From Fimbriimonadaceae bacterium (GTDB lineage: Bacteria > Armatimonadota > Fimbriimonadia > Fimbriimonadales > Fimbriimonadaceae): DNA of 13,438 nucleotides. Position 1 is the stretch's first letter; the number at the start of each line of letters is the position of its first letter. The notes under the pieces were generated by a model. The model was not told the origin of the DNA, searched no databases, and saw only the letters and a list, made by a program, of their open reading frames with translations. The stretch spans positions 1 to 13,438 of the forward strand of contig JAIBBE010000250.1 in NCBI GenBank assembly GCA_019694835.1. The letters run 5' to 3'. This document shows positions 3 to 13,438 of this stretch, piece after piece. The position numbers and the translations under genes are program-made.

Positions 3-1001
3 GACGACGAGCGGCCCGGCGCCCTGTCGGCGGCCCTCGACTCGGTAACGACCGAGGCGGCGAAATCCCTCGCCGAAGCGGTCAAGCCGATCCAGGATGC
101 CCTGCTGGGCAGCGGCCCCACCGCCCTCCCCCAGGTGCTCGAGGTCCGCGTGCTGGACGCGCTGACCCGGGGCACCCGCGCGGCACTCGACAGGCTGTTC
201 GACGTCGAGGGTGGCAGTCCGCTGATGACGCACCTGGCCAACGGCGAGAAGGCTATCGCCGCGCTCCGCGAGGAGAACACGGCGATCGAAGGACGGCTGC
301 GTGCCGAGATAATCCAGCTGGCGGAAAAGGTTGTCGCCCAACAGTCGCAGAAGCCGACGCCGGTCGAGGCGGGCAACACCTGGGAGTCCGACACCCTCGA
401 CGACATCGCCCGCGTCACGACGATCCTCGGCGACACAGTCGAGCCGGTCGGAAGTTCGACCGGACACGGCAGGAGCAAGGCCGGCGACCACCTCCTGCAC
501 GTCTGCGATGCCGACCTCGATGGCATCCGGGTGGCCATCGAATGCCGTACGGGCTCCTCGCGGGCCCTCACGGTGGCCCAGTTGCGGGAGATGGTCGAGA
601 ACCGCGAAGCCCACGCCGGGCTGCTCCTCAGCCCGACGACTGAGGCCCTGCCCCGGGATGCGCGTGCCTCCGGGTTCCGGGTGTACCTCGCCGAGCGCGT
701 CGTGGTGCTCCATTACGACCGCCTTGATCCGACCGGCGAGCAACTGCTGGCAACAGCCATCCAGGTGGTTCGGTTGCTCGCCCGGCTGGCCGCCACCTCG
801 GGCGGCGCACTGGACGAGCGCGAGCAGATCCGCGACGGCTTCGCGCGCATCGAGACGGCGTTGGGCCACCTGAAACCGTTGCGTGCGGCGGTGACCGGCA
901 TCGAGAAGGAAACCGGCGTAGTACGCAAGCACGCATCGGAACTCGAGAACGAGATCCGCCGCGTGATCATCGACCTCACGGCCACGTTCATGGCGGCGTA
1001 G
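3..1001 (+). CDS. Coiled-coil protein with a restriction-endonuclease-like domain (C-terminal part, DUF2130-like)
   Basis: The frame is open to the left window edge, so this is the last 332 residues of a longer protein. The first ATG or GTG in the window is not necessarily its start. The visible part begins with a charged helical region (residues ~1-115 of the partial protein). A compact alpha/beta domain (~125-250) follows, with a GD pair (D162), a hydrophobic strand leading into an IECRTG motif (E180, R182), and LLLSPTTEAL and FRVYL strands. This order resembles the PD-(D/E)XK fold of DUF2130-type proteins, except that the expected E-x-K reads E-x-R. The last ~80 residues are again helical and heptad-like. 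A nuclease-related or DNA-binding role is inferred from fold resemblance only. It ends 15 bases before a strong hairpin, so it is transcriptionally separate from what follows. GC content is high, as in the right flank, so it is probably resident rather than part of the island. Confidence 0.6.
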   Translation, partial: DDERPGALSAALDSVTTEAAKSLAEAVKPIQDALLGSGPTALPQVLEVRVLDALTRGTRAALDRLFDVEGGSPLMTHLANGEKAIAALREENTAIEGRLRAEIIQLAEKVVAQQSQKPTPVEAGNTWESDTLDDIARVTTILGDTVEPVGSSTGHGRSKAGDHLLHVCDADLDGIRVAIECRTGSSRALTVAQLREMVENREAHAGLLLSPTTEALPRDARASGFRVYLAERVVVLHYDRLDPTGEQLLATAIQVVRLLARLAATSGGALDEREQIRDGFARIETALGHLKPLRAAVTGIEKETGVVRKHASELENEIRRVIIDLTATFMAA

Positions 1002-1015
1002 TACTGGCGGATGAA

Positions 1016-1056
1016 AGCGGAGTGGGTGGGTGGCGTTTTCACCCGCCCACTTCGCT
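1016..1056 (+). terminator. Intrinsic-type hairpin terminator after the first gene
   Basis: The arms at 1016-1032 and 1040-1056 pair over 17 positions, two of them G-U wobbles, around the 7-base loop 1033-1039. The hairpin starts 15 bases after the stop codon at 1001. There is no T-tract after the right arm, which is common for actinobacterial hairpin terminators. It should insulate the defence genes from the upstream gene. Confidence 0.7.
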
Positions 1057-1189
1057 GACTGACCCAGGCTGCATTCCACAGCTGGCAGCTCCTCGCATCT
1101 GGAGAATCGGGCAGGCCGGATAGGCCCGCTAGAACGGCGACCGGCAGCTGTTTTCACTGGAAGGCGAGGAACGCGCTGGAGAGTTTGCC

Positions 1190-1195
1190 TAGGCT
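1190..1195 (+). promoter_or_regulatory. Possible -10 element (TAGGCT) for a leaderless transcript
   Basis: TAGGCT fits the actinobacterial TANNNT -10 pattern. It lies 8 bases before the ATG at 1204, so a transcript starting 6-8 bases downstream would begin at or just before the start codon. This would explain why no Shine-Dalgarno sequence sits at a proper distance (the nearest, GGAGAG near 1178-1183, is too far). No convincing -35 is visible. The rest of the 1057-1203 gap holds three CAGCT-containing words but nothing I can name. Confidence 0.3.
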
Positions 1196-1203
1196 GCCGA
1201 GAC

Positions 1204-2757
1204 ATGGTTACCAAAAGGCGTTTGGAGACCCGCGCAGTAAAACTGGGGGATCTTGTTCAGGACTATCGCACCGGCCGCATTGTGATACCTGAGTTCCAGC
1301 GTGACTACGTCTGGGCTCCGAACAAAGCCCCGACGCTGTTGGATTCGCTTTACAAGAGTTATCCCGTTGCTTCCCTGCTGCTCTGGCGGAACGCGGACTA
1401 CGAGCGCGCTCGCCGCAGGACGCCCAAGCCGGCGCGCGAAGTGAGCAACTGGCTAATCGACGGTCAACAACGGCTCATGACCATCTCGCGTTCCATGTAC
1501 GGCGACGACGAGCGGATCGAAGTTGTCTTCAACGCCGAGAGTGAAGAATTCAGACTAATTAACGCCCGGCTGGCCAACGACCCTGCCTGGGTCAGAGTTT
1601 CACTGCTGTTTGATGACGACAGCTGGCGTGATATCCGGGGAGAATTGCCGACCGGACCCAAGGGCCGCAGAACAGAGGCTGCATACGACCGAGTCCGCGC
1701 CATAATGGATTACGAAATTCCTGTTGTGACGATGATTAATCACCCCTTCGACGATGCGGTGGAAGCATTCACTCGCATCAATAAACTCGGTGTCAAATTG
1801 AAGAAGCAAGACATCGAGAACGCGAAGACCGCAGCCCAGCACTCTGGCTTCATTTCAGAAGATGTCGTTCCCTACATGGAGAAGTTAGATGCCGCCGGAT
1901 TACGGCGGCTCTCTGTCATGCACCTGTTCCGCGTCTGCGAGTCTGTGGCAAGACCGGATGGAAGAACTCGCACACCACTCCACGAGTTGAAGAACGCCGA
2001 AGTCAAAGCTGCCTGGAGGGTGACCGAAAAGGCTGCGCTTGAAGCGCGCCGAATAATCCAGTCGGAACTCGGACTGGTCAATATGGACATCATTTGGTCT
2101 GGAGCACTGCTTGTTCCTCTCATCGCGATGCTGGCCAAGAAAAGAAGCGCGAGAGACTCGAACCCAAGGGCGATGATCGGCTGGCTGGCTTTAGCGGCTT
2201 TGCACCACCGCTACAGCAAGGGTGCGAATACGGCCCTGGACCAGGACGTGCGTGCTTGTAGGGCGGAAGATCCGATTGGAGCGCTACTAGGGAACCTGCG
2301 TCAGTATCACCGTGAAGCCCTGCTTTCGACGCCAGAAGACTTCAAAGCCGCCCTCAACGATCGCAACGGGCTGTTGGCAGCGTACATCGCATGCCGGCAC
2401 CGCGCGATGAAGGATCTCTTTACCGGCCAAACGATCATCTTGCAGGAATCGATCGACCGGCATCATATCCTTCCGCGGCGCCAGTTTCCCGAAGCCGACC
2501 GAGCGAAAATTGCTGATCAGATCGCCAATATCTCCTTCATCACCAGTGAGGTGAACAGCTCGATCAACCAGACGAGTCCGGAGGTGTACCTCAAAGATAT
2601 TCGGCCGGATATCCTTGCAAGCCAGTGCATTCCGGAAGATTCAACTCTGTGGTACATCAACAAATCGAGTGCGTTTTTCAGGGCCAGGATGTCACTGTTG
2701 TCCGAGGCATTCAACGACTTTGTGCGCGAGTGCCTGCCAGGTCGGCACTTGAGTTAG
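1204..2757 (+). CDS. DUF262 / HNH (GmrSD-type) endonuclease
   Basis: A 517-residue protein of the GmrS/GmrD class. The N-terminal DUF262 domain shows IPEFQRDYVW at 28-37, IDGQQR at 85-90 and FTRINKLGVKLKKQDIENAK at 189-208. In this superfamily (GmrSD, BrxU, SspE) the DGQQR loop binds and hydrolyses nucleotides. The C-terminal HNH-type domain has DRHHILPR at 418-425, ANISF around N442 and a further Asn near 451, the usual spacing for a DUF1524-like beta-beta-alpha metal nuclease. The middle (~215-400) is helical with no named motif. Family members are mostly modification-dependent (type IV) phage-restriction nucleases with nucleotide-regulated activity; the target modification here cannot be read from sequence. 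At 517 residues it is somewhat short for a fused GmrSD. ATG at 1204 is chosen because conserved sequence begins soon after it. A 226-base gap separates it from the next gene, so it may be independent. Composition is more AT-rich than the flanks. Confidence 0.88.
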   Translation: MVTKRRLETRAVKLGDLVQDYRTGRIVIPEFQRDYVWAPNKAPTLLDSLYKSYPVASLLLWRNADYERARRRTPKPAREVSNWLIDGQQRLMTISRSMYGDDERIEVVFNAESEEFRLINARLANDPAWVRVSLLFDDDSWRDIRGELPTGPKGRRTEAAYDRVRAIMDYEIPVVTMINHPFDDAVEAFTRINKLGVKLKKQDIENAKTAAQHSGFISEDVVPYMEKLDAAGLRRLSVMHLFRVCESVARPDGRTRTPLHELKNAEVKAAWRVTEKAALEARRIIQSELGLVNMDIIWSGALLVPLIAMLAKKRSARDSNPRAMIGWLALAALHHRYSKGANTALDQDVRACRAEDPIGALLGNLRQYHREALLSTPEDFKAALNDRNGLLAAYIACRHRAMKDLFTGQTIILQESIDRHHILPRRQFPEADRAKIADQIANISFITSEVNSSINQTSPEVYLKDIRPDILASQCIPEDSTLWYINKSSAFFRARMSLLSEAFNDFVRECLPGRHLS

Positions 2758-2774
2758 GCGCAGGGACAGCTGGG

Positions 2775-2797
2775 CGGTCAGTTGGAACACCTGGCCG
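2775..2797 (+). terminator. Possible weak hairpin terminator after the DUF262/HNH gene
   Basis: CGGTCAG (2775-2781) pairs with CTGGCCG (2791-2797) over 7 positions with one U-G wobble and a 9-base loop, 17 bases after the stop at 2757. There is no T-tract. The position suits a terminator but the stem is short. The rest of the 2758-2983 gap contains a small CCGG-AATG-CCGG hairpin and no clear promoter, although the next operon presumably has one here. Confidence 0.3.
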
Positions 2798-2970
2798 AGC
2801 AAGCATCGACGTCAGTACGCCCCCGACATCCTTGGGAACGCACTTCAGGTTGCGGACTTGGTGTTCTCTTCCATACCGGCGTCGACCCCAGCGTCGGGGC
2901 AGGTGAGTCAATGCCGAGATGGCCGGAATGCCGGTGTTACGGTCAGCGCGAGAGCTGGCTCAAGAGGTCT

Positions 2971-2976
2971 GGGAGG
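2971..2976 (+). promoter_or_regulatory. Ribosome binding site that sets the methyltransferase start (TTG)
   Basis: GGGAGG stands 7 bases before the TTG at 2984. This is the only good Shine-Dalgarno sequence in the upstream part of the frame, and it places conserved motif I right at the N-terminus, as is normal for the family. It decides against the ATG at 2858. Confidence 0.6.
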
Positions 2977-2983
2977 CCATCTA

Positions 2984-4051
2984 TTGATCGAGGTTGTATC
3001 CCTGTTCACCGGGGCGGGGGGATTGGACTTAGGCCTGGAGTCGACAGGGTACTTCGACATAACTGCACGAATCGAAGCGGAACCCGAATACTGCAAGACG
3101 ATCGCTGCCTCCCAGAAAGCGGGTGTACTTCGTGACGCGGCGATCTTCGAGAGCGACTTTTTGGAGGTAGATCCCGGTTCTGTCTGGACCCACCCAAAAC
3201 CGGAAATCCGCGGTGTCATAGCAGGTCCGCCTTGTGAGAGCTTCTCATCGTTCGGTCTCAGAAAGGGCCACAGCGACCCACGTGGACAGTTGCTTTTCAA
3301 GCTTATTGAATGGATAGATCAGTCAGATGCCGATTTTTTCCTCATAGAGAACGTTCCTTCTCTGACCCAGGGCGAGAATCGGCCCGGATTCGAACGCCTA
3401 ATCAAAAAATTCCGTTCACGTGGTTTCGCAGTTGATTTCCGAATACTCAACGCAGCAGACTACGGTGCCGCGACTTGGCGAAAGCGTGTAATTGTTTTGG
3501 GATTACGGGGCTCTAACCCCTTGGCGTTCCCCGAGCCAACCCACGCGGATCCGAACGGCCGTGACTTCAAGCATCACAGGACGCCATGGGTTACATCTGG
3601 TGACGCACTCAACGGGCTCCCTTCGCCGGCTGCGAAAGCGCCGGGGTCGCCCTCGGGCCATGTCCTAATCGCCCACACGGAACCAGTCACTGAGCGTTTC
3701 AGAGCCCTCGGTCCTGGAGCATTCGATCCCGTCCGCCGACGTCGCCGTCTTGCATGGAATAGGCCAAGCCCGTCCCTCGTAGCGGGAAACCTGACGGGGA
3801 CCCGCGCGCATATTCATCCACTTGAGCCTAGGGAGCTCACAAACCGGGAATGTGCTCGAATCCAAGGTTTTCCGGATTCGTTCGACTTCTCTGGATCACG
3901 TTGCGCGGTAGCGAAACAGATTGCCAACGCGGTTCCAGTCGCCCTCGCCCAACAAATCGGTTACGCGATCGGTCGACAACTGGACGAGGCGTCAACGGAA
4001 GATCGCAAGCCCAGCCCGAGCCCCTTGTTGAGGAATCCCGTTGCTGTCTGA
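2984..4051 (+). CDS. DNA (cytosine-5-)-methyltransferase
   Basis: A 355-residue C5-cytosine methyltransferase that transfers methyl from S-adenosylmethionine to cytosine in a specific DNA target. Motif I is VVSLFTGAGGLDLG (4-17). Motif IV is GPPCESFSSFG, with catalytic Cys84. Motif VI is the ENV triplet at 122-124. Motif VIII is DYGAATWRKR (159-168), where the usual Gln before the arginines is missing. Motif IX is RELTNRECARIQGFPDSF starting at 283, and motif X is KQIANAVPVALAQQIG from 311, with Ala in place of the usual Gly. Target recognition should lie between VIII and IX (~175-280). TTG at 2984 is chosen for its ribosome binding site and because the 42 residues added by the upstream ATG look non-coding (Ser/Gly/Arg-rich). 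The next gene begins 48 bases downstream, probably in the same operon. It could protect the host genome for the restriction genes around it or form a pair with the DUF262/HNH nuclease. Confidence 0.9.
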   Translation: MIEVVSLFTGAGGLDLGLESTGYFDITARIEAEPEYCKTIAASQKAGVLRDAAIFESDFLEVDPGSVWTHPKPEIRGVIAGPPCESFSSFGLRKGHSDPRGQLLFKLIEWIDQSDADFFLIENVPSLTQGENRPGFERLIKKFRSRGFAVDFRILNAADYGAATWRKRVIVLGLRGSNPLAFPEPTHADPNGRDFKHHRTPWVTSGDALNGLPSPAAKAPGSPSGHVLIAHTEPVTERFRALGPGAFDPVRRRRRLAWNRPSPSLVAGNLTGTRAHIHPLEPRELTNRECARIQGFPDSFDFSGSRCAVAKQIANAVPVALAQQIGYAIGRQLDEASTEDRKPSPSPLLRNPVAV

Positions 4052-4099
4052 CGCGAATGCATCCGCACGCGGAACACTATCGCCCGTAGTTGAGTAGTC

Positions 4100-5146
4100 A
4101 TGGGTTCGAGTCAACTAATTGGAAAGCGAACCCGCGGTTTGATCGACCCCGTGACGACCTTGGCGGCCGCAGACGAGGCGCTGGCTAAACTCGCGGCCTC
4201 AAAGCCTCAAGCTGTTGAAGATTTTCGCACTCTTAAATATCGATACGCTCGGGAATGCCGCTCCTACTACAGTGTTGCCGCTTTGTCGCGCCGGGCTCTC
4301 CTGGAAGACGAACTGCGGTCTGCGGCGTACGCAAAGCTGTTCCGGCTTCGGTCTAATCTCGAGAATTCAATCATTGGCGATCTCGATTTCTGCGGCGAAA
4401 GAGGTGATCTCGAGAAGATTTGGGCGTCAAAATCCTTTTTTGGCGTCTCAGCCAAGCAGGGCGTGAGCATACGATACGCACTGGCCAGTTGTGTACCTAC
4501 TCGTGATTGCGGCGCGCGTTGCTACGCACATGATGGCCGCGATCGCGAGATTCATCACTTGTTCCGGGGTGCTCTCAACTACTACTTCGGCCAGAAATAT
4601 GAGACTTCTGCGGCTGATGAGCGTCGGCGCTTGCTCGGCCTCTTGTCCAATGCGGTTGCCTACGGCGTGTCTGCCGCGCGCAGCGATCAACTCGCTGCCC
4701 AGAGAGAATTGGGAATCTTGCGGGCTCCGCGCATCCGCTTCTCTCACGTTGGCGAGATCGCTTCCACCCCGGAATTCGCGAACGCCGTTGCGCTGCAGGT
4801 TCGATCGATCGATCCGGAAGTGGCGTGCGTGATTTACACGCGACACCCCAAAGCCCAAAGCCTGGACAGCAGAATGTTCGTAATCAATTTCACGCTCGAG
4901 GGCGATGACGATCCGCGACGTCGATGGATTCCCCCCACCGCCCGCATTGTTTCGAGCGCGTGGAACGGGCAGTTGTCTTCTCTCGCGGACATCAATTTCC
5001 TGGAGCACCATGTGGCGGGCGTAGCTCAAGCCACCGGCCGCGGAGCCATATGTCCAGTGACGCTCGACCACGCCCGGAATTCCAGTTGTGATGTCGCACA
5101 GTGTCAGCTGTGTTTCGTCCCTCCCGCGGAAGGACTTCCTCGGTGA
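4100..5146 (+). CDS. GP88-like double-cysteine-cluster protein (possible radical-SAM/Fe-S enzyme)
   Basis: A 348-residue protein whose C-terminal two thirds resembles the phage GP88 family and, more distantly, Gp37/Gp68-type proteins related to radical-SAM enzymes. A first Cys cluster, CVPTRDCGARCYA (C131, C137, C141), precedes a helical stretch. Then come RIRFSHVGEIAS (211-222) and CVIYTRHPKA (243-252), which match the family's 'R-F-x3-G-(D/E)-x2-S' and 'Y-T-R' strands. A second cluster lies at the C-terminus: C318, C330, C335, C338. Two Fe-S or metal sites are plausible. The Cys spacing is C-x5-C-x3-C rather than the canonical radical-SAM C-x3-C-x2-C, so catalysis is uncertain. The first ~100 residues are helical and Arg-rich and I do not recognise them. 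ATG at 4100 is the first start after an in-frame stop at 4091; its Shine-Dalgarno is weak. The stop overlaps the next start in GTGA, implying translational coupling to the MmeI-like gene. The gene is AT-rich at its 5' end. Family assignment is from remembered motifs only. Confidence 0.6.
   Translation: MGSSQLIGKRTRGLIDPVTTLAAADEALAKLAASKPQAVEDFRTLKYRYARECRSYYSVAALSRRALLEDELRSAAYAKLFRLRSNLENSIIGDLDFCGERGDLEKIWASKSFFGVSAKQGVSIRYALASCVPTRDCGARCYAHDGRDREIHHLFRGALNYYFGQKYETSAADERRRLLGLLSNAVAYGVSAARSDQLAAQRELGILRAPRIRFSHVGEIASTPEFANAVALQVRSIDPEVACVIYTRHPKAQSLDSRMFVINFTLEGDDDPRRRWIPPTARIVSSAWNGQLSSLADINFLEHHVAGVAQATGRGAICPVTLDHARNSSCDVAQCQLCFVPPAEGLPR
5128..5134 (+). promoter_or_regulatory. Ribosome binding site that sets the MmeI-like gene start (GTG)
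   Basis: GGAAGGA lies 8 bases before GTG at 5143, which overlaps the upstream TGA (5144-5146) as GTGA. The alternative upstream GTG at 5101 has no comparable site and would overlap the preceding gene by 46 bases. Confidence 0.6.
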
Positions 5147-7878
5147 GGCTCAATCTGAAGGCAATCGAGAAAAGGGTAACGCCGCTCGCTCGCCGCGAGT
5201 CCTACGACCGAGGATTCATTTTCGATCTTCTGCTGGCTTACGGGAAGCCGCAAGGAAACGTCACTCGGCTACGCAAGGGGTCACTGAATGTGGCCGATGA
5301 CCCCGCGACGGAAGTCGCGCAAAAAAACGTCGTCTACTTCAAAGAAACCCCAGGTGATCCGCTCGCGTTGATCGATGAGCTGAAGTCGTCACCGGCCGTG
5401 GTGCGATACAACACCCGGTTTGTCGTCGTAACCAACTACATCGAATTGGTCGCCGTCGACACAAAGACCGGCGAAAACCTCATGATCCCTATTCGGGATA
5501 TCGATCAGCATTTCACCTTCTTCTTGCCTTGGGCCGGCATGGAGAAAGCTCAGTACGTTGCCGAGGCCCACGCCGACGTCAAAGCAGCGGGGCGGATGGG
5601 CCAGCTCTTCGACGAGCTCGTCGGGGCGAACTCCGGTCTGCTCGACCTACCCAACGGGCGCCACGCGCTTAACGTCTTCTTTACTAGGCTTCTCTTCTGT
5701 TTTTTTGCCGAAGACACTGGCATCTTCGGCGACAGCCAATTCACGAATGCTGTCGCATCGCACACTCAAGCTGACGGCTCCGACGTCGCCGAATTCCTAA
5801 ATGATCTCTTCGTCGCTCTCGACACGGCAGACCCCGCCGACCGGCCAAGCTATCTTGCGGAATTCCCGTACGTGAACGGAAGACTGTTTGCCAAATTGCG
5901 CGGCGAGGTTGTGCCCAAGTTCACCAGCAAGGCGCGTGACCTACTAATCGAACTCGGCAAGTTGATCTGGCGTGAGATCAATCCGGACATTTTCGGTTCG
6001 ATGTTCCAAGCGATCGTCACGCCAGGCAAGCGCTCGGACCTAGGCCAGCACTACACGTCGGTGCCGAACATCCTCAAGACAATTGAACCGTTGTTTCTCG
6101 ATGGTTTGAAGGAGCAATTCGACGCGGGATACGACAACGTCAAGAAACTTGAAGGCTTGCTCGACAGGATCGGCGCGATTAAGGTCTTCGATCCTGCCTG
6201 TGGATCGGGGAACTTTCTCGTCATCGCCTACAAGGAGTTGCGCAAGCTAGAGCACGCTATCCTCGAGCGCCTCGCCGATCTGGATCCCAAACATCAAGTG
6301 CTGTTCAATGAATCGAGAATAAAGGTAGAGAACTTCTACGGCATCGAACTCGACGACTTCGCAGTCGAGGTAGCGATCCTCTCCCTGTGGATCGCCAAGC
6401 ATCAGATGAATACAGAGTTCAGGGAGAAGTTCGGTGTCTCGATTCCATTGATCCCCCTCAAGGAAGCCGGCCAGATCCATCCTGGCAACGCTACCCGGAT
6501 CGATTGGAACGCAGTTTGCCCTAACAATGGCACCGAAATGATTTACCTGATTGGGAATCCGCCATATGTGGGATCGGTGCGCCAGTCTGCGGAACAGAAG
6601 GCCGATTATAAATTTACTTTCGGAGATCGACAATATTCCGGGAACCTCAACTACATAGCGCTCTGGTTCATCAAAGGGTCCGACTACATCAAAGGAACCC
6701 GAGCTGAGCTAGCCTTTGTTACTACAAACACCGTCGCGCAGGGTGAGCATGTTGGACTTATGTTCCCAATGATATTTGATATGAATGTCGAGATTGGGTT
6801 TGCACACACGGCATTCCAGTGGGACAACAATGCCAGAGGAAATGCTGATGTCACCGTCGCTGTCATAAGCCTCAGAAAGGCAAGCCCCCGCACGAAGTTC
6901 ATCTACACCGACGGGCTAAAAATCGAAGCCAAGAATATTAATGGTTACCTAGCCGATGGTGACAACGTCTTCATCACCGCCCGTTCGAGGTCAATAGCCC
7001 AATTGCCACTGATGGTCAAGGGATCTCAACCGACTGACGATGGCAACCTCATACTGAACCCAGCTGAGCGCAAGCAGCTTCTCGAGGAGTATCCATCCGC
7101 GGCGCCCTACATAAAACGTATCGTCGGATCGGTCGAATTCATCAACGACCAGGACCGATTCTGCATTTGGGCGCCCGACGACCAGGATGGGGAAGAGGCT
7201 TCCCGGATCCCAGCTCTAAAGCAGCGATTCGATCGGACAGCTGAATTTCGGCTAAATAGTCCCCGCGAAGCGACTAGGAAATTAGCTCAAACCCCACATA
7301 GATTCGATGTTGTGAGTTATCGCCCAGTGGAATCCATTGTTATACCGAGTGTGTCATCCGGGCTTCGTGAATATATTCCATTTGGGTTTCTGGGACCCGA
7401 TACCGTTATATCGAATCTAGCTTATGTGATCTACGACTCAGAGCCGTGGGTGTTCGCGCTCCTGACGTCCAGAATGCATATGACATGGGTGAACGCAGTA
7501 GCTGGCCGTAAGCGGATCAACTACCGATACTCAAACACGATTGTTTACAACAACTTCCCGGCCCCACCGCTTTCGGGCGAGCTGAAGGAGAAGTTGATCG
7601 CCGCAGCACTGCGCGTCTTAGACGTCCGCGAGTATCACTGCGAGAGGACTCTTGCTGAGCTTTATGACCCCGGTCAAATGCCGCAGGACCTAAGGGCGGC
7701 CCACGCTGAGGTAGATGCACTGGTCGATTCGATCTACTCGAAGCGCGCCTACGAGACCGATGAACAGCGCTTGTCGGACTTGTTCGCTATGTATGAGGTG
7801 ATGACCGCCGCGAAAGGGTCCACAGCCGGCCGAAAATTTGCAAAGACGTCAGGGGGGAACGCAAGTGAACACAATTAG
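5143..7878 (+). CDS. MmeI-like (type IIL-like) DNA methyltransferase/specificity protein, nuclease site not evident
   Basis: A 911-residue class I SAM-dependent DNA methyltransferase with MmeI-family architecture. Domains in order: an N-terminal domain (~1-150); the helical spacer with FFTRLLFCFFAEDTGIF (179-195) and GQHYTSVPNILK (301-312); the methyltransferase core with motif I VFDPACGSGNF (348-358), YGIELDDFA (399-407) and catalytic NPPY (472-475), typical of adenine-N6 enzymes; a target recognition domain (~600-785); and a C-terminal part with NYRYSNTIVYNNFP (793-806). True MmeI enzymes carry a D...ExK nuclease in the N-terminal domain. Here the corresponding strand seems to be NVVYFKE (62-68), with no acidic residue in the E-x-K position, so it may not cut on its own. 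It starts at GTG 5143 in a GTGA overlap and overlaps the helicase by 14 bases. The core and recognition domain are markedly more AT-rich than the N-terminal part. I infer that it recognises and methylates the site for the helicase/GIY-YIG pair. Confidence 0.88.
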   Translation: MRLNLKAIEKRVTPLARRESYDRGFIFDLLLAYGKPQGNVTRLRKGSLNVADDPATEVAQKNVVYFKETPGDPLALIDELKSSPAVVRYNTRFVVVTNYIELVAVDTKTGENLMIPIRDIDQHFTFFLPWAGMEKAQYVAEAHADVKAAGRMGQLFDELVGANSGLLDLPNGRHALNVFFTRLLFCFFAEDTGIFGDSQFTNAVASHTQADGSDVAEFLNDLFVALDTADPADRPSYLAEFPYVNGRLFAKLRGEVVPKFTSKARDLLIELGKLIWREINPDIFGSMFQAIVTPGKRSDLGQHYTSVPNILKTIEPLFLDGLKEQFDAGYDNVKKLEGLLDRIGAIKVFDPACGSGNFLVIAYKELRKLEHAILERLADLDPKHQVLFNESRIKVENFYGIELDDFAVEVAILSLWIAKHQMNTEFREKFGVSIPLIPLKEAGQIHPGNATRIDWNAVCPNNGTEMIYLIGNPPYVGSVRQSAEQKADYKFTFGDRQYSGNLNYIALWFIKGSDYIKGTRAELAFVTTNTVAQGEHVGLMFPMIFDMNVEIGFAHTAFQWDNNARGNADVTVAVISLRKASPRTKFIYTDGLKIEAKNINGYLADGDNVFITARSRSIAQLPLMVKGSQPTDDGNLILNPAERKQLLEEYPSAAPYIKRIVGSVEFINDQDRFCIWAPDDQDGEEASRIPALKQRFDRTAEFRLNSPREATRKLAQTPHRFDVVSYRPVESIVIPSVSSGLREYIPFGFLGPDTVISNLAYVIYDSEPWVFALLTSRMHMTWVNAVAGRKRINYRYSNTIVYNNFPAPPLSGELKEKLIAAALRVLDVREYHCERTLAELYDPGQMPQDLRAAHAEVDALVDSIYSKRAYETDEQRLSDLFAMYEVMTAAKGSTAGRKFAKTSGGNASEHN
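7851..7859 (+). promoter_or_regulatory. Ribosome binding site that sets the helicase start (GTG)
   Basis: AGGGGGGAA lies inside the end of the MmeI-like gene, 5 bases before GTG 7865. It favours that start over the TTG at 7838, which sits upstream of the site itself. Confidence 0.65.
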
Positions 7879-9844
7879 GAAACCTGTCAACGTCGTTGAT
7901 GTGACGTACGCGCACACTGGCGAGTCGGTTAACACCGATGCGATGGGTATGAGAGAGATGCAGCAGCGAGTCTTCGCGAAGCGCGATGCGCAGCATCTGC
8001 TGGTCAAGGCTCCGCCGGCCTCTGGCAAATCAAGAGCATTGATGTTCGTCGCTCTCGACAAGCTTTACAACCAGGGACGAAGGAAAGTGATTGTCGCAGT
8101 GCCGGAGCGATCGATCGGTGCTTCGTTCTCGTCAACAAACCTCACGGAGCACGGCTTTTTTGCGGACTGGGAAGTCAGGGATGACAACAACTTATGTACA
8201 CCGGGTTCGTCACTTGGCAAGGTCCCTGCGTTCGTCAACTTCCTAAACGGGCCAGACGCGGTGCTGGTCTGCACCCACGCGACCTTGCGGTATGCATTCG
8301 ACAAACTCACACCCGAGGCCTTCAACGGCACGGTCCTGGCGATCGATGAGTTCCACCACGTCTCAGCGGACACCGAGGCCAACCGTCTCGGAGCCCTTCT
8401 GCGTGAAGTGATGAACGGTTCGGACATACACATTGTTGCGATGACCGGTTCATACTTCCGAGGCGACTCGGTGCCAGTGCTCGCACCCGAAGACGAGATG
8501 AAATTCACGCCAGTTACGTTCAACTACTACGATCAACTCAATGGTTACGAACACCTGAAGTCCCTTGGCATCGGGCACCATTTCTATCAGGGCCGCTACA
8601 CCGACGCGATCGGCGAAGTTCTGGACCTGGACAAGAAGACGATCGTCCATATCCCGAACGTGAACTCAGGCGAGTCGACGAAAGACAAGATCGAAGAAGT
8701 CGGGTTCATCATCGACGCCATAGGGCACGTCGAGAGTACGGATCCCGACACTGGGATCATCAGCATTCGCCGTGCCGATAACGGTGCAGTCATCAAGGTC
8801 GCTGATCTCGTCGACGACTCGGACCAGAAAAAACGTGCGGACACCTTGCACTACTTGTCAACCGTCGCTGCCAAGGAACGTGAAGGCGTCGACATCATCA
8901 TCGCACTTGGGATGGCAAAGGAGGGGTTTGACTGGCCCTTCGCCGAGCATGCGCTGACCGTCGGTTACCGGGCATCGCTGACTGAAGTAATTCAGATTAT
9001 CGGGCGCGTTACCCGCGACAGTCCCGGTAAGGAGCGTGCTCAGTTCACTAATCTGATAGCCGAACCCGACGCCTCTAAAGGAGAAGTCACGGTTTCGGTG
9101 AATAACATGCTCAAAGCCATCACCGCTTCGCTGCTCATGGAACAGGTACTCGCGCAGAACTTTACCTTCAAGGCTGAGCAGGCCGCGGACCCAAACCCGA
9201 ATCCTCCTGGCACTATCAAGATCTGCGGATTCAAGGAACCGACGACCGAGCGCGTCAAGCAGATCGTCGAGACTGACCTGAACGACTTGAAAGCCACAAT
9301 CCTGCAAAATGACACCTTCGCCAAAGCCGCCGCGGGATCGCTGGATCCTGAGACTACGAACAAAGTCCTGATCCCGAAAATCATCCGTGAGCGTTATCCC
9401 GATTTGGATGACTCCCAAGTCGAGGAGTTGCGACAGCAAGTTGTCGTCGACGCAGTAATCAAGAACGGCGAAGTCCGGCAGGTTGGCGACAAGCGATTCA
9501 TAAGGATGGCAGAGAAGTTCGTAAACATCGACGACATCAACATCAACCTCATCGACTCCGTCAATCCCTTCCAGCGAGCCTTCGAGGTCATGAGCAAGTC
9601 GGTAACCCCCTCTGTGTTGCGCATCATCTCCGATGCAATCATCGCGACGCGGGTCGAGGTCACCGAAGACGAAGCCCTGACGGCTTGGCCGAAGATCCAA
9701 GCGTGGGTCAAGATCAACGGGCACAAACCCAACGTTCGTTCTGAGGATCCTATTGAGAAGCGGTACGCCGAGATATTGCTGTATCTGCAACGCAAGAAAC
9801 AGCAGCGCGATGCCGGCCAACGCGACGCCGAGGAAGAACCATGA
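7865..9844 (+). CDS. SF2 DEAD/DEAH-type helicase of the restriction operon
   Basis: A 659-residue superfamily 2 helicase/translocase. A Q-like lead-in (REMQQRVF) precedes Walker A APPASGKS (49-56). Motif II is DEFHH (161-165), a DExH variant; motif III is TGS (194-196); motif V is GMAKEGFDWP (349-358); motif VI is QIIGRVTRDSPG (377-388) with both arginines. The ATPase core therefore looks intact. From ~400 on there is a long helical C-terminal region of unknown fold. It ends in a 35-residue module (607-641, INGHKPN within it) that also occurs near the N-terminus of the next protein. It overlaps the preceding gene by 14 bases and the following one by ATGA, so the three should be made together. 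By analogy with type I and III restriction, the motor probably moves along or remodels DNA after the methyltransferase-like partner has found an unmodified site. No nuclease domain is visible in it. The start is GTG 7865. Confidence 0.88.
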   Translation: MNTIRKPVNVVDVTYAHTGESVNTDAMGMREMQQRVFAKRDAQHLLVKAPPASGKSRALMFVALDKLYNQGRRKVIVAVPERSIGASFSSTNLTEHGFFADWEVRDDNNLCTPGSSLGKVPAFVNFLNGPDAVLVCTHATLRYAFDKLTPEAFNGTVLAIDEFHHVSADTEANRLGALLREVMNGSDIHIVAMTGSYFRGDSVPVLAPEDEMKFTPVTFNYYDQLNGYEHLKSLGIGHHFYQGRYTDAIGEVLDLDKKTIVHIPNVNSGESTKDKIEEVGFIIDAIGHVESTDPDTGIISIRRADNGAVIKVADLVDDSDQKKRADTLHYLSTVAAKEREGVDIIIALGMAKEGFDWPFAEHALTVGYRASLTEVIQIIGRVTRDSPGKERAQFTNLIAEPDASKGEVTVSVNNMLKAITASLLMEQVLAQNFTFKAEQAADPNPNPPGTIKICGFKEPTTERVKQIVETDLNDLKATILQNDTFAKAAAGSLDPETTNKVLIPKIIRERYPDLDDSQVEELRQQVVVDAVIKNGEVRQVGDKRFIRMAEKFVNIDDININLIDSVNPFQRAFEVMSKSVTPSVLRIISDAIIATRVEVTEDEALTAWPKIQAWVKINGHKPNVRSEDPIEKRYAEILLYLQRKKQQRDAGQRDAEEEP

Positions 9845-11031
9845 GCAACGCAGAAGGCGAGGGCGTCAGACCCAGCGACATTGAGGCTCTGTTCGATTCC
9901 GATATCGATGGATTGCTCGAAGTTCCCGAGAAGCCGCAAAACGTCAGTTCTGCGGATCGCCTCGAGCGCGCGTTCCTGGAGATAGTCGAGTTTCGGCGCA
10001 CGCACGGACGGATTCCGAGTTCCTCAACGCGAAACATCGCTGAGCGCAAGCTCGGAGCGCGACTGGACGGCATCCTTGCGAACGACGAAAAGATAGCGGC
10101 GCTAAGGCCGCTGGACGAGTTCGGCATCCTCGACCTTCCCGAGGCGCCGGCGTCGATCGAGGACTTATTGCAGGGCGATGGTCTCGACCTGCTCGAGGAT
10201 GAGTCCGGGTTGCTCGACGTCTCTAACCTCCCAGTCCGGAAGGCGCCGGACTCGCCCGACTCGGTCGCAAGGCGTAAGAAGTGCAACGATTTCGAGCGTT
10301 TCGAGCCCCTGTTCAAGGCTAAGCACGCAGAGCTGGCCGATGGAACCGTCACGCTAGCCCCTTTCAAGGGCCTGCCCACTGTGCAGGAGGGCCGATTCTT
10401 CGTGTTGAACGGTCTGATGCTATTCGTGGCGGAAGTGGGTGAGACGAAGACTTTGGTTGTCGGCGGCAAACCTGAGCCGAAGCAACGATTGCGAGCGATC
10501 TTCGAGAACGGCACAGAGTCCGCGCTATACCGCCAATCGCTGTCCATTCGGCTTCACGAGCAGGAAGGTCAAGCGGTAGTCCGCACCGGCGTTGAAGACG
10601 AGGAGATTTTCGATGCTGATGTCGAGAGCGGCCATATCTATGTGCTTGAGTCGCTGAGCGAGGACCCACAACTGGCAAAAATCGCCGATCTACACAAGAT
10701 TGGTTTCTCAAGAACTAGCGTCGAAGGCCGGATCAAAAACGCTGAGAAGTCCCCGACCTATTTGATGGCACCGGTGAAAGTTGTTGAGGACTATCGTACT
10801 TACAACCTCAGGCCGTCCGCACTGGAGCACCTTCTGCATAGGGTATTCGCCGAGGTGCGCCTCGATCTCACACAGATCGACCACAAAGGCCGTAACTACG
10901 ACCCGTCCGAATGGTTTGTCGTTAGCCGAAAAGTGATCAACCAGGCGATCAACATGATCATGTCCGGAGAGATCGTTGATTACGTGTACGACGCGCGTCT
11001 CGGAAGGTTGGTTGAACGAGAAGTCCGGTGA
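9841..11031 (+). CDS. GIY-YIG (T5orf172-type) endonuclease
   Basis: A 396-residue protein. The C-terminal GIY-YIG domain has HIYVLES (265-271, Y267), HKIGFSR (285-291, the usual KIG form of the second motif), R297, catalytic Glu329 in ALEHLLHRVF, and EWF at 357-359; all key residues appear present. A middle domain (~170-245) carries FENGTES (221-227), seen in related GIY-YIG proteins before the nuclease. The N-terminus has a 35-residue module (44-78, THGRIPS within it) alignable with the helicase C-terminus. Around it are acidic short repeats of the type LLEVPE / ILDLPE / LLDVSN (25-30, 96-101, 124-129). It starts at ATG 9841 in an ATGA overlap with the helicase, with GAGGAAG at 9830-9836. 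It probably makes the DNA breaks for the MmeI-like/helicase system. The stop at 11031 ends the island, and no convincing terminator follows. Confidence 0.88.
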   Translation: MSNAEGEGVRPSDIEALFDSDIDGLLEVPEKPQNVSSADRLERAFLEIVEFRRTHGRIPSSSTRNIAERKLGARLDGILANDEKIAALRPLDEFGILDLPEAPASIEDLLQGDGLDLLEDESGLLDVSNLPVRKAPDSPDSVARRKKCNDFERFEPLFKAKHAELADGTVTLAPFKGLPTVQEGRFFVLNGLMLFVAEVGETKTLVVGGKPEPKQRLRAIFENGTESALYRQSLSIRLHEQEGQAVVRTGVEDEEIFDADVESGHIYVLESLSEDPQLAKIADLHKIGFSRTSVEGRIKNAEKSPTYLMAPVKVVEDYRTYNLRPSALEHLLHRVFAEVRLDLTQIDHKGRNYDPSEWFVVSRKVINQAINMIMSGEIVDYVYDARLGRLVEREVR

Positions 11032-11132
11032 TCGGATGCTTCTGGATACGCACTAATCCGAATGTCCGCTCTTGGCTGCTGACGGGACGCTTGGCCGGTC
11101 TTGTGTTCTGGCAGTTGGGCAGTTTGGCCAGC

Positions 11133-11141
11133 AAGGGGAGG
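11133..11141 (+). promoter_or_regulatory. Ribosome binding site of the RecB-like/helicase gene
   Basis: AAGGGGAGG ends 5 bases before ATG 11147 and fixes that start. The gap 11032-11146 shows no clear promoter. Confidence 0.7.
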
Positions 11142-11146
11142 TACTG

Positions 11147-13438
11147 ATGAATCCGCGGGTAGCCACACCATCAAAGATCACTGCATGGTTGGACTGCCCT
11201 CATTACTTGACGCTGCGGACCAAAGTCGATGATGGACAGCTCCCCGAGCCCAGCACAATCTTCGGTTCGTTCTCCCGACTTCTGCAGGCTAAGGGGGCCA
11301 TTCACGAGGCGGAGTGCCTGGAGGCATACGGAAAGGCGGGGCTATCTGTCCACAATGTTCCCGCAAGGCAGGACAGAGAGACCTTTGCAACGTGGGTGGA
11401 CCGCGTCGGAAATCCATTGGCTGAGGGCCCTGACGTCATCTATCAGATGCCGTTCATCCACGACGGCGTGAGAGGTATTGCGGACTTCCTCGAGCGGGTC
11501 GACACCCCGGAGGGGGGCTTCGCTTACGAGCCCGTGGACGCGAAACTGACTCGAGTCGACGCCAAGCCAGGCCATGTCCTGCAGTTGTGTTTCTATGCCG
11601 ATGCGATCGCCGCACTGTACGGCAGCGATCCGGAGCAGATGCATATCCTGCTCGGCTCCGGTCGGCGAGAGACGCTCAAGGTCAACGAGTTCCGTCCATA
11701 CTGGCGGCGGCTTCGCGGACAGCTGGCAGCGGCGCTCGACGCCGGGCCGGAGGCGGGCACCGCTCCCGAGAAGTGCGGGCATTGCGCGTTCTGCGAGTTC
11801 TTTCCGCATTGCGAGGCGCAGTGGCGCGAAGAGGACTCGTTGATCTTCATCCCCGGCATCCGGCCGGCCGAGCGGGCCGCCCTGGCCGTCGCCGAGGTGA
11901 CGCGCTTGGAGCAACTCGGCGGGCTCGATGGCCAGCCTGTCCGGATCCGCGGGCCGCGGCTGGGTTGGTTGGTGGAGCAGGCGAGGCTTCAGGTTCAGGC
12001 CCGTCTCGACAGCGACGGGGCCGCCCCGCCCTTCTCGATCTTGGAGGCCGGGGAGGACGCCAACCTGGGCCGCGGCTTTGAGCTGATGCCCGAGCCCGAT
12101 CCTGGCGATGTCTTCCTCGACTTCGAAGGTCATCCCTTCTGGCGCCCGGACACCGGACTGTTCTTCCTTCTCGGCCTCATCGAACGCAATGAAGCGGGCG
12201 ACTGGGTCTACCGGGACTGGTGGGCCCATGACCGCGACCAGGAAGCTCAGAAGGTTGCCGAACTGGTCGAATACCTGGGCCAGCGACGGGCCCAATTCCC
12301 CGGCATGCACGCCTACCACTACAACCACACCGAACGGACCGCGTTACAGAGCCTGACCCGCGAGCACGGCGTCGCGGAGGCGGAACTGGGCAGGTTGGTG
12401 CAAGCCGGGGTGTTCGTCGATCTATTCGCCGTCGCCCGCAACGCGATCCAGGTCGGCACGGAGTCCTACGGACTCAAAAGCCTGGAGCGACTCACCGACT
12501 ACCAACGGAACCACGACATCGACAAGGGCGCCGGCGCGGTGGTCCGCTACGAGCAGTTCATGGCCGACGGCAACCCGTCTGAGTTGGCGGCGATCGCGGC
12601 TTACAACGAGGACGACGTCCGCGCCACCCGTGCTCTACGCGACTGGCTGATCGCGCATCGACCGGCCGGCCTGCCTTGGCGAGAACCGCCGGAGGAACCC
12701 AACGAGGTCCTCGCCAACATCGACGAGCAGATCGCGGCCTTCCACCAATTCGACGAAGGAACCCCTGAACACCTCCTCGGTGACCTTCTCGGTTACTGGA
12801 CCAACGAGTGGTGGGCCTACCTCATGCCCAAACTCGCCCAATGCCAACAAGACACGAGCGACCTGCTCGAGGTCCGCGACGCGATCGCCGACATGCGCTT
12901 CACCGGCCCCTACCCGCGCTACAGCAAGAAGGGCACCGAGATCGACCCCGGGATGGGGTTCACCTTCCCTGAGCAACAACTCGAGGGCTTCCCGGACATC
13001 GCCGAAGACGACGAAGACACGACTGTCATGTACGTCGACCCGGAGGGCTCGTGGCGGTCGGCCAAGATCGAGCGCCTCGAGCGCGAGGCCGGGCAGTTGG
13101 GCCTGCAGTGGGGCAAGAAGAACCGGGACGCCGGGCACCTGCCGGCCGTCGTGGTCCTGCATCCCTGGGTGCGCACCGAGCCGAAGCGCCTCGCGCTGTC
13201 GGACTTCGGAACCCGCCTCCTGGAGGGCGACTCGCCCAACCCCGTTACCGAGGCTCTTCTGCGCCGAGAATTGCCGCGCTTCCATCCCGGCCACGGACCC
13301 ACCGGCGGGGAGTTCACCGACGACGTCGCCGACATGGCCGGGTGGGCGCCGCACCTGGACCACAGTTACGTCGCCGTACAAGGCCCCCCGGGCACCGGGA
13401 AAACGTTTCGGGCGGCCCACATCGTGCATGCCCTGGTC
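11147..13438 (+). CDS. TM0106-family RecB-like nuclease / RNase H-like / SF1 helicase fusion (5' part)
   Basis: The frame is open to the right edge, so the first 764 residues are seen; family members run well over 1000. Domains in order: a Cas4/RecB-like PD-(D/E)XK nuclease with a HE pair (53-54), D113, VDAK (D131, K133) and QLCFY (146-150); an iron-sulphur-type Cys set, C17 with C210, C213, C216 and C222, as in Cas4 and AddB; an RNase H-like 3'-5' exonuclease domain with DFE (325-327), D425 and YNEDD (486-490); a linker; then Walker A GPPGTGKT (746-753), opening the SF1 (UPF1-like) helicase that continues outside the window. It most likely processes DNA ends in repair or replication, though a defence role is possible next to this island. 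It is high in GC like the left flank, has its own ribosome binding site, and lies 115 bases after the island's last gene. It is probably a resident gene marking the right border. Confidence 0.9.
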   Translation, partial: MNPRVATPSKITAWLDCPHYLTLRTKVDDGQLPEPSTIFGSFSRLLQAKGAIHEAECLEAYGKAGLSVHNVPARQDRETFATWVDRVGNPLAEGPDVIYQMPFIHDGVRGIADFLERVDTPEGGFAYEPVDAKLTRVDAKPGHVLQLCFYADAIAALYGSDPEQMHILLGSGRRETLKVNEFRPYWRRLRGQLAAALDAGPEAGTAPEKCGHCAFCEFFPHCEAQWREEDSLIFIPGIRPAERAALAVAEVTRLEQLGGLDGQPVRIRGPRLGWLVEQARLQVQARLDSDGAAPPFSILEAGEDANLGRGFELMPEPDPGDVFLDFEGHPFWRPDTGLFFLLGLIERNEAGDWVYRDWWAHDRDQEAQKVAELVEYLGQRRAQFPGMHAYHYNHTERTALQSLTREHGVAEAELGRLVQAGVFVDLFAVARNAIQVGTESYGLKSLERLTDYQRNHDIDKGAGAVVRYEQFMADGNPSELAAIAAYNEDDVRATRALRDWLIAHRPAGLPWREPPEEPNEVLANIDEQIAAFHQFDEGTPEHLLGDLLGYWTNEWWAYLMPKLAQCQQDTSDLLEVRDAIADMRFTGPYPRYSKKGTEIDPGMGFTFPEQQLEGFPDIAEDDEDTTVMYVDPEGSWRSAKIERLEREAGQLGLQWGKKNRDAGHLPAVVVLHPWVRTEPKRLALSDFGTRLLEGDSPNPVTEALLRRELPRFHPGHGPTGGEFTDDVADMAGWAPHLDHSYVAVQGPPGTGKTFRAAHIVHALV

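Follow-up and report, generated by a model that had tools for sequence, protein, structure and literature searches.

We analysed a 13,438-nucleotide (nt) stretch of DNA from a Fimbriimonadaceae bacterium (contig JAIBBE010000250.1; hereafter the window), in which a gene for a cysteine-rich protein lies between restriction genes, immediately after that of a DNA C5-cytosine methyltransferase. Computation yielded the gene itself, its invariant cysteines, its kinship with the phage family GP88 (PF17338), the pairing and fusion of its relatives with C5-methyltransferases, and a predicted fold resembling that of radical S-adenosylmethionine (SAM) enzymes. The reading we favour, with confidence a little short of even, is that the protein is a radical-SAM-type iron–sulfur (Fe–S) enzyme of the GP88 superfamily, the partner of the neighbouring methyltransferase, and modifies the cytosine which that enzyme has just methylated.

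A conserved relative of GP88

The protein carries the two cysteine clusters that a sequence-only reading of the window had noted, C131/C137/C141 and C318/C330/C335/C338. In a homologue search that scored the 7,996 candidates with most shared words, 361 proteins matched at E≤0.01, the window's own match included. The best 120 of these 361 were listed, and 49 of the 119 other listed matches were aligned with the window protein (50 rows, identity down to 44%). All seven cysteines, whose conservation the sequence-only reading had put forward as a check, are invariant in 50 of 50 rows, as are K119-Q120-G121-V122-S123, H144-D145-G146, D148 and E302-H303-H304, among other residues. The cysteines are still invariant in 12 more divergent rows (the window protein, bacterial loci L001–L004 and L014, the phage copy L005 and five listed proteins), and the CX5CX3C spacing recurs in five of five loci. 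Because of the 361 matches and the seven invariant cysteines, the open reading frame (ORF) is more than a chance one.

The window protein has no match of its own in Pfam, NCBIfam, PHROGs or PADLOC, and PF17338 is touched weakly by 3 of the 50 alignment rows (best E 0.0007). Short relatives from other genomes (L010–L012; 230–250 amino acids (aa)) share with the window family CX5CX3CY, a GE or GD motif and the C-terminal cysteine cluster; L012 passes the PF17338 cut-off of 24.4 bits at 55.9, with L010 (21.9) and L011 (19.4) below it. Compared by hhalign, 31 short GP88 proteins match the window-family profile across 217 columns, in which the motifs line up (P 96.4, E 1.1e-9). These short proteins have GSGE at the site matching F-S-H-[VI]-G-[ED], and their C-terminal cysteines follow in the same order. 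In a structural search against viral models, phage proteins named 'Gene product 88' or 'Gene 88' took the top three places (E 5.4e-5 to 9.0e-4), so that the resemblance to a phage-encoded family claimed earlier is borne out. Given the profile match and its aligned motifs, the window protein counts, on sequence, as an N-terminally extended relative of GP88 and falls outside the family as Pfam's threshold defines it. The Pfam entry gives only 'Gene product 88', and we know of no function assigned to GP88. Among the open-licence PMC papers listed, we found none on the window protein or its pairing with C5-methyltransferases, an absence of limited reach.

Association with DNA C5-methyltransferases

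Six bacterial loci were compared (the window, L001–L004 and L014). At five of them the direct same-strand neighbour of the GP88-like gene is a C5-methyltransferase gene with intact catalytic motifs, upstream in four loci and downstream in L004. The two genes of a pair overlap by 17 nt at one extreme and are at most 106 nt apart at the other; for L014 the distance may be smaller, because the reading frame there stays open further upstream. At L001 the gene is bounded by a contig end on one side and a PLD-helicase on the other, and the draft genome gives no C5-methyltransferase match. The remaining content of the loci varies: MmeI type in the window, type III Mod/Res in L002 and L003, type IIG-like in L004 and L014, and PLD or SNF2-type helicases in L001, L002 and L014. 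Because C5-methyltransferase genes are few in the four other pair-bearing draft genomes (2, 1, 1 and 1), adjacency by chance would be expected at ~5e-4 to 9e-4 per genome, a figure that ignores the clustering of defence genes and serves only as a guide.

A search admitting longer proteins returned, as its sole match among 4,441 candidates, a 681-aa fusion (P0210) evidenced by one 2,753-base contig. It comprises a C5-methyltransferase at residues 3–326 (E 1.4e-64) and a GP88-like part at 343–677, whose identities to their counterparts in the window are 43% and 45%, and retains GPPCES, ENV, SHIGE and all seven cysteines. Together with the gene pairs, this fusion is the best sign that the two enzymes act jointly.

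Only the long branch shows the pairing, since the short GP88 loci L015 and L016 have no C5-methyltransferase in their nearest ORFs (9 neighbouring ORFs scanned); recognisable neighbours there are a TatD DNase, a CHAT/NACHT protein and helix-turn-helix proteins. In L015 (7633–12148) the short GP88 gene adjoins a CHAT/NACHT/TPR protein, and in L016 (7362–8069) it lies among the helix-turn-helix proteins. At L014 a four-gene set (9158–18119) encodes a PLD/SNF2-type helicase, an Eco57I-type methyltransferase, the C5-methyltransferase and the GP88-like protein; its individual proteins match models of several defence systems, and the set was matched to no named system.

Fusion and adjacency would also be compatible with a regulator, that is, a protein acting on the methyltransferase, or on some other product of the operon, by maturation, regulation or redox gating, as an Fe–S sensor or a peptide modifier. 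The radical-SAM protein and peptide modifiers anSME, ChlB and SuiB are indeed among the structural matches, but the C5-methyltransferase partners are diverse (29–46% identical to each other) and stand in differing restriction settings, and we regard this explanation as unlikely.

The same genes bear on the idea of a domesticated phage anti-restriction protein. Phages are known to encode GP88 proteins, and a relative occurs on one 172-kb phage contig (L005), yet the window family is found at 0 loci in phage records and 1 locus in IMG/VR (the 361 matches carry no host labels, and their bacterial origin is unproven), and such an origin hardly explains a gene kept inside, and once fused to, modification genes. 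This is the least probable of the explanations considered. In the region 6875–8900 of L005, the gene upstream of the GP88-like one encodes a methyltransferase that resembles the DNA phosphorothioation-associated family TIGR04096 below threshold (107.6 bits, cut-off 150); this neighbour suggests that the wider family may be associated with more than one kind of methyltransferase. The contig also has a phage DNA polymerase ORF (10–2871) that, read by eye, seems to contain an intein-like insert.

Predicted radical-SAM-like fold

Among the barrel rows, radical-SAM proteins account for 28 of 31 with the window model, and with a short GP88 model they fill the top 15 of 15 rows; both models are predicted folds only. 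The three-cysteine motif lies in the loop after strand 1 (121–124), as in radical-SAM proteins, and residues 214–219 take the place of the radical-SAM GGE motif. Several results weigh against membership. By Foldseek alone the radical-SAM matches were not significant for either model; Pfam Radical_SAM matches neither the window protein nor its aligned relatives; and hhalign comparisons with two sets of 11 of 30 radical-SAM domains, weak tests in themselves, gave P 0.1–0.5, with no meaningful alignment against shuffled controls. The cysteine spacing, moreover, is CX5CX3C in place of the canonical CX3CX2C. Variants of that spacing are known, such as CX5CX2C in HcgA (PMC10100467). Because of its noncanonical spacing we file the GP88-like protein as one that works like a radical-SAM enzyme, and its membership is provisional. 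The earlier proposal of an Fe–S or radical-SAM-like enzyme agrees with the barrel prediction and with where the cysteine loop lies, and not with spacing or sequence-profile similarity; the earlier interpretation as a whole is partly supported, with the domesticated origin it had entertained now ranked low.

The invariant residues E302, H303, H304, D145 and D148 could bind metal, and C5-methyltransferases are often paired with endonucleases. The protein might then supply restriction in a type II-like unit completed by the methyltransferase, as a metal-stabilised nuclease and not a radical enzyme. However, both its predicted barrel and the place of its cysteine loop fit radical-SAM enzymes, and the family databases named above give no nuclease match; we regard this explanation, too, as unlikely.

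Proposed function

In the radical-enzyme reading, a [4Fe-4S] cluster bound by C131, C137 and C141 would split SAM to yield a 5'-deoxyadenosyl radical, and an auxiliary metal centre would sit at the four C-terminal cysteines. We infer the cluster, the SAM cleavage, DNA as substrate and the product. Since a radical enzyme would here be tied to one that methylates cytosine at C5, its most likely substrate is, most simply, the cytosine just methylated by the partner. Hydrogen abstraction from the 5-methyl group, or nearby, would let the base gain a further change, and the operon would bear a self mark other than plain 5-methylcytosine (5mC), much as TET enzymes act on methyltransferase-made 5mC. 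The pairing and fusion suggest that DNA is marked or tended in a second step not described before. That the two enzymes form a cytosine-marking unit writing an undescribed base, an oxygen-independent counterpart of TET 5mC hypermodification, is a possibility we hold more tentatively than the partnership itself.

Tending could also mean damage control, with the enzyme repairing or reversing lesions or off-target products associated with the activity of C5-methyltransferases. Vsr and AlkB-type repair accompany such methyltransferases elsewhere, and the radical-SAM enzymes include one that repairs DNA, spore photoproduct lyase; we judge this improbable, if the foremost of the alternatives. Synthesis of an antiviral nucleotide, as by viperin, is very improbable.

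Placing GP88 among radical-SAM-like enzymes, with one branch tied to DNA C5-methyltransferases, makes its function directly testable. If the proposal is right, self-marking in restriction systems exceeds methylation, and radical chemistry on DNA serves as a regular mark, beyond repair alone.

Genomic setting

The gene is the third of six same-strand genes in series, which run from GmrSD_N to T5orf172/MUG113 (Table 1), the last of which is of GIY-YIG type. The methyltransferase ORF (PF00145, E 2.2e-57; motifs GPPCES, ENV and QIANAVP intact) ends at 4051, 48 nt before the GP88-like ORF. On the other side the MmeI-like gene (PF20473, E 1.9e-95) has a possible start at GTG 5143, overlapping the GP88-like stop TGA 5144–5146 and preceded at eight bases by AAGGA (5130–5134); the placement between these two genes with a GTGA stop/start was read correctly from the sequence. 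G+C is ~50–59% within the defence-gene run (window 1000–11300) and 63–69% at both window ends, a contrast that suggests an acquired island.

Residues 1–136 of the MmeI-like protein (5143–5550) have no counterpart among solved structures, and the whole protein aligns with MmeI (5hr4) from residue 90 onward only; Pfam MmeI_N nonetheless matches. No D...ExK nuclease motif was seen by eye, and the nuclease may be inactive. The first ORF in the window (135–1001; 288 aa) has a weak, sub-threshold match to phage GP57 (18.2 bits, cut-off 27).

Table 1. Features of the window and of the GP88-like protein
Feature	Position	Strand	Basis or remark
GmrSD_N (DUF262-type) protein, upstream, same island	1204..2757	+	ORF and family matches
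DNA C5-cytosine methyltransferase	2858..4051	+	PF00145 and motifs; longest ORF, true start may be internal
GP88-like, radical-SAM-like protein	4100..5146	+	ATG start, 348 aa ORF
N-terminal helical extension, residues ~1–110	4100..4429	+	secondary structure; longer than in short GP88 proteins
CX5CX3C-Y motif (C131, C137, C141)	4490..4522	+	loop after strand 1
F-S-H-[VI]-G-[ED], residues 214–219, after strand 2	4739..4756	+	position of radical-SAM GGE motif
C-terminal four-Cys cluster (C318, C330, C335, C338)	5051..5113	+	candidate auxiliary Fe–S or Zn site
AAGGA Shine-Dalgarno-like stretch and GTGA stop/start overlap with MmeI-like gene	5130..5146	+	
MmeI-like type IIG methyltransferase/restriction protein	5143..7878	+	family and structure matches
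SF2 helicase	7838..9844	+	family match; longest ORF, start may be downstream of 7838
T5orf172/MUG113 protein	9841..11031	+	family match

Comparison with known systems

With GP88 (PF17338) the window protein shares CX5CX3CY, the GE motif after strand 2, the C-terminal C-P...C..C..C cluster and the core fold; it differs in its longer N-terminal part and in having no Pfam match of its own, and the short GP88 loci L015 and L016 lack the C5-methyltransferase neighbour. Like the radical-SAM superfamily (viperin, spore photoproduct lyase, TYW1, QueE) it has a predicted partial barrel, a cysteine loop after strand 1 and [V/I]GE after strand 2, whereas its family has CX5CX3C, not CX3CX2C, and no detectable sequence similarity. 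DUF5131/Gp37Gp68 (PF07505) likewise has a three-cysteine motif ending in CYA, and profile comparison finds no kinship (hhalign P 0.3 and 2.5; with 20 proteins P 1.0 to 6.7, within shuffled controls).

As in known C5-methyltransferase restriction–modification loci and in MmeI-type and type III systems, a C5-methyltransferase stands near a type IIG-like or type III methyltransferase, with a helicase or Res protein in most loci; here, by contrast, the methyltransferase has a putative Fe–S, radical-SAM-like gene directly beside it or fused to it. TET-type oxidation of 5mC, on which a literature search turned up no paper, occurs in phages, and the proposed enzyme would likewise act on methyltransferase-made 5mC, but TET enzymes work with iron and oxygen in place of SAM radicals.
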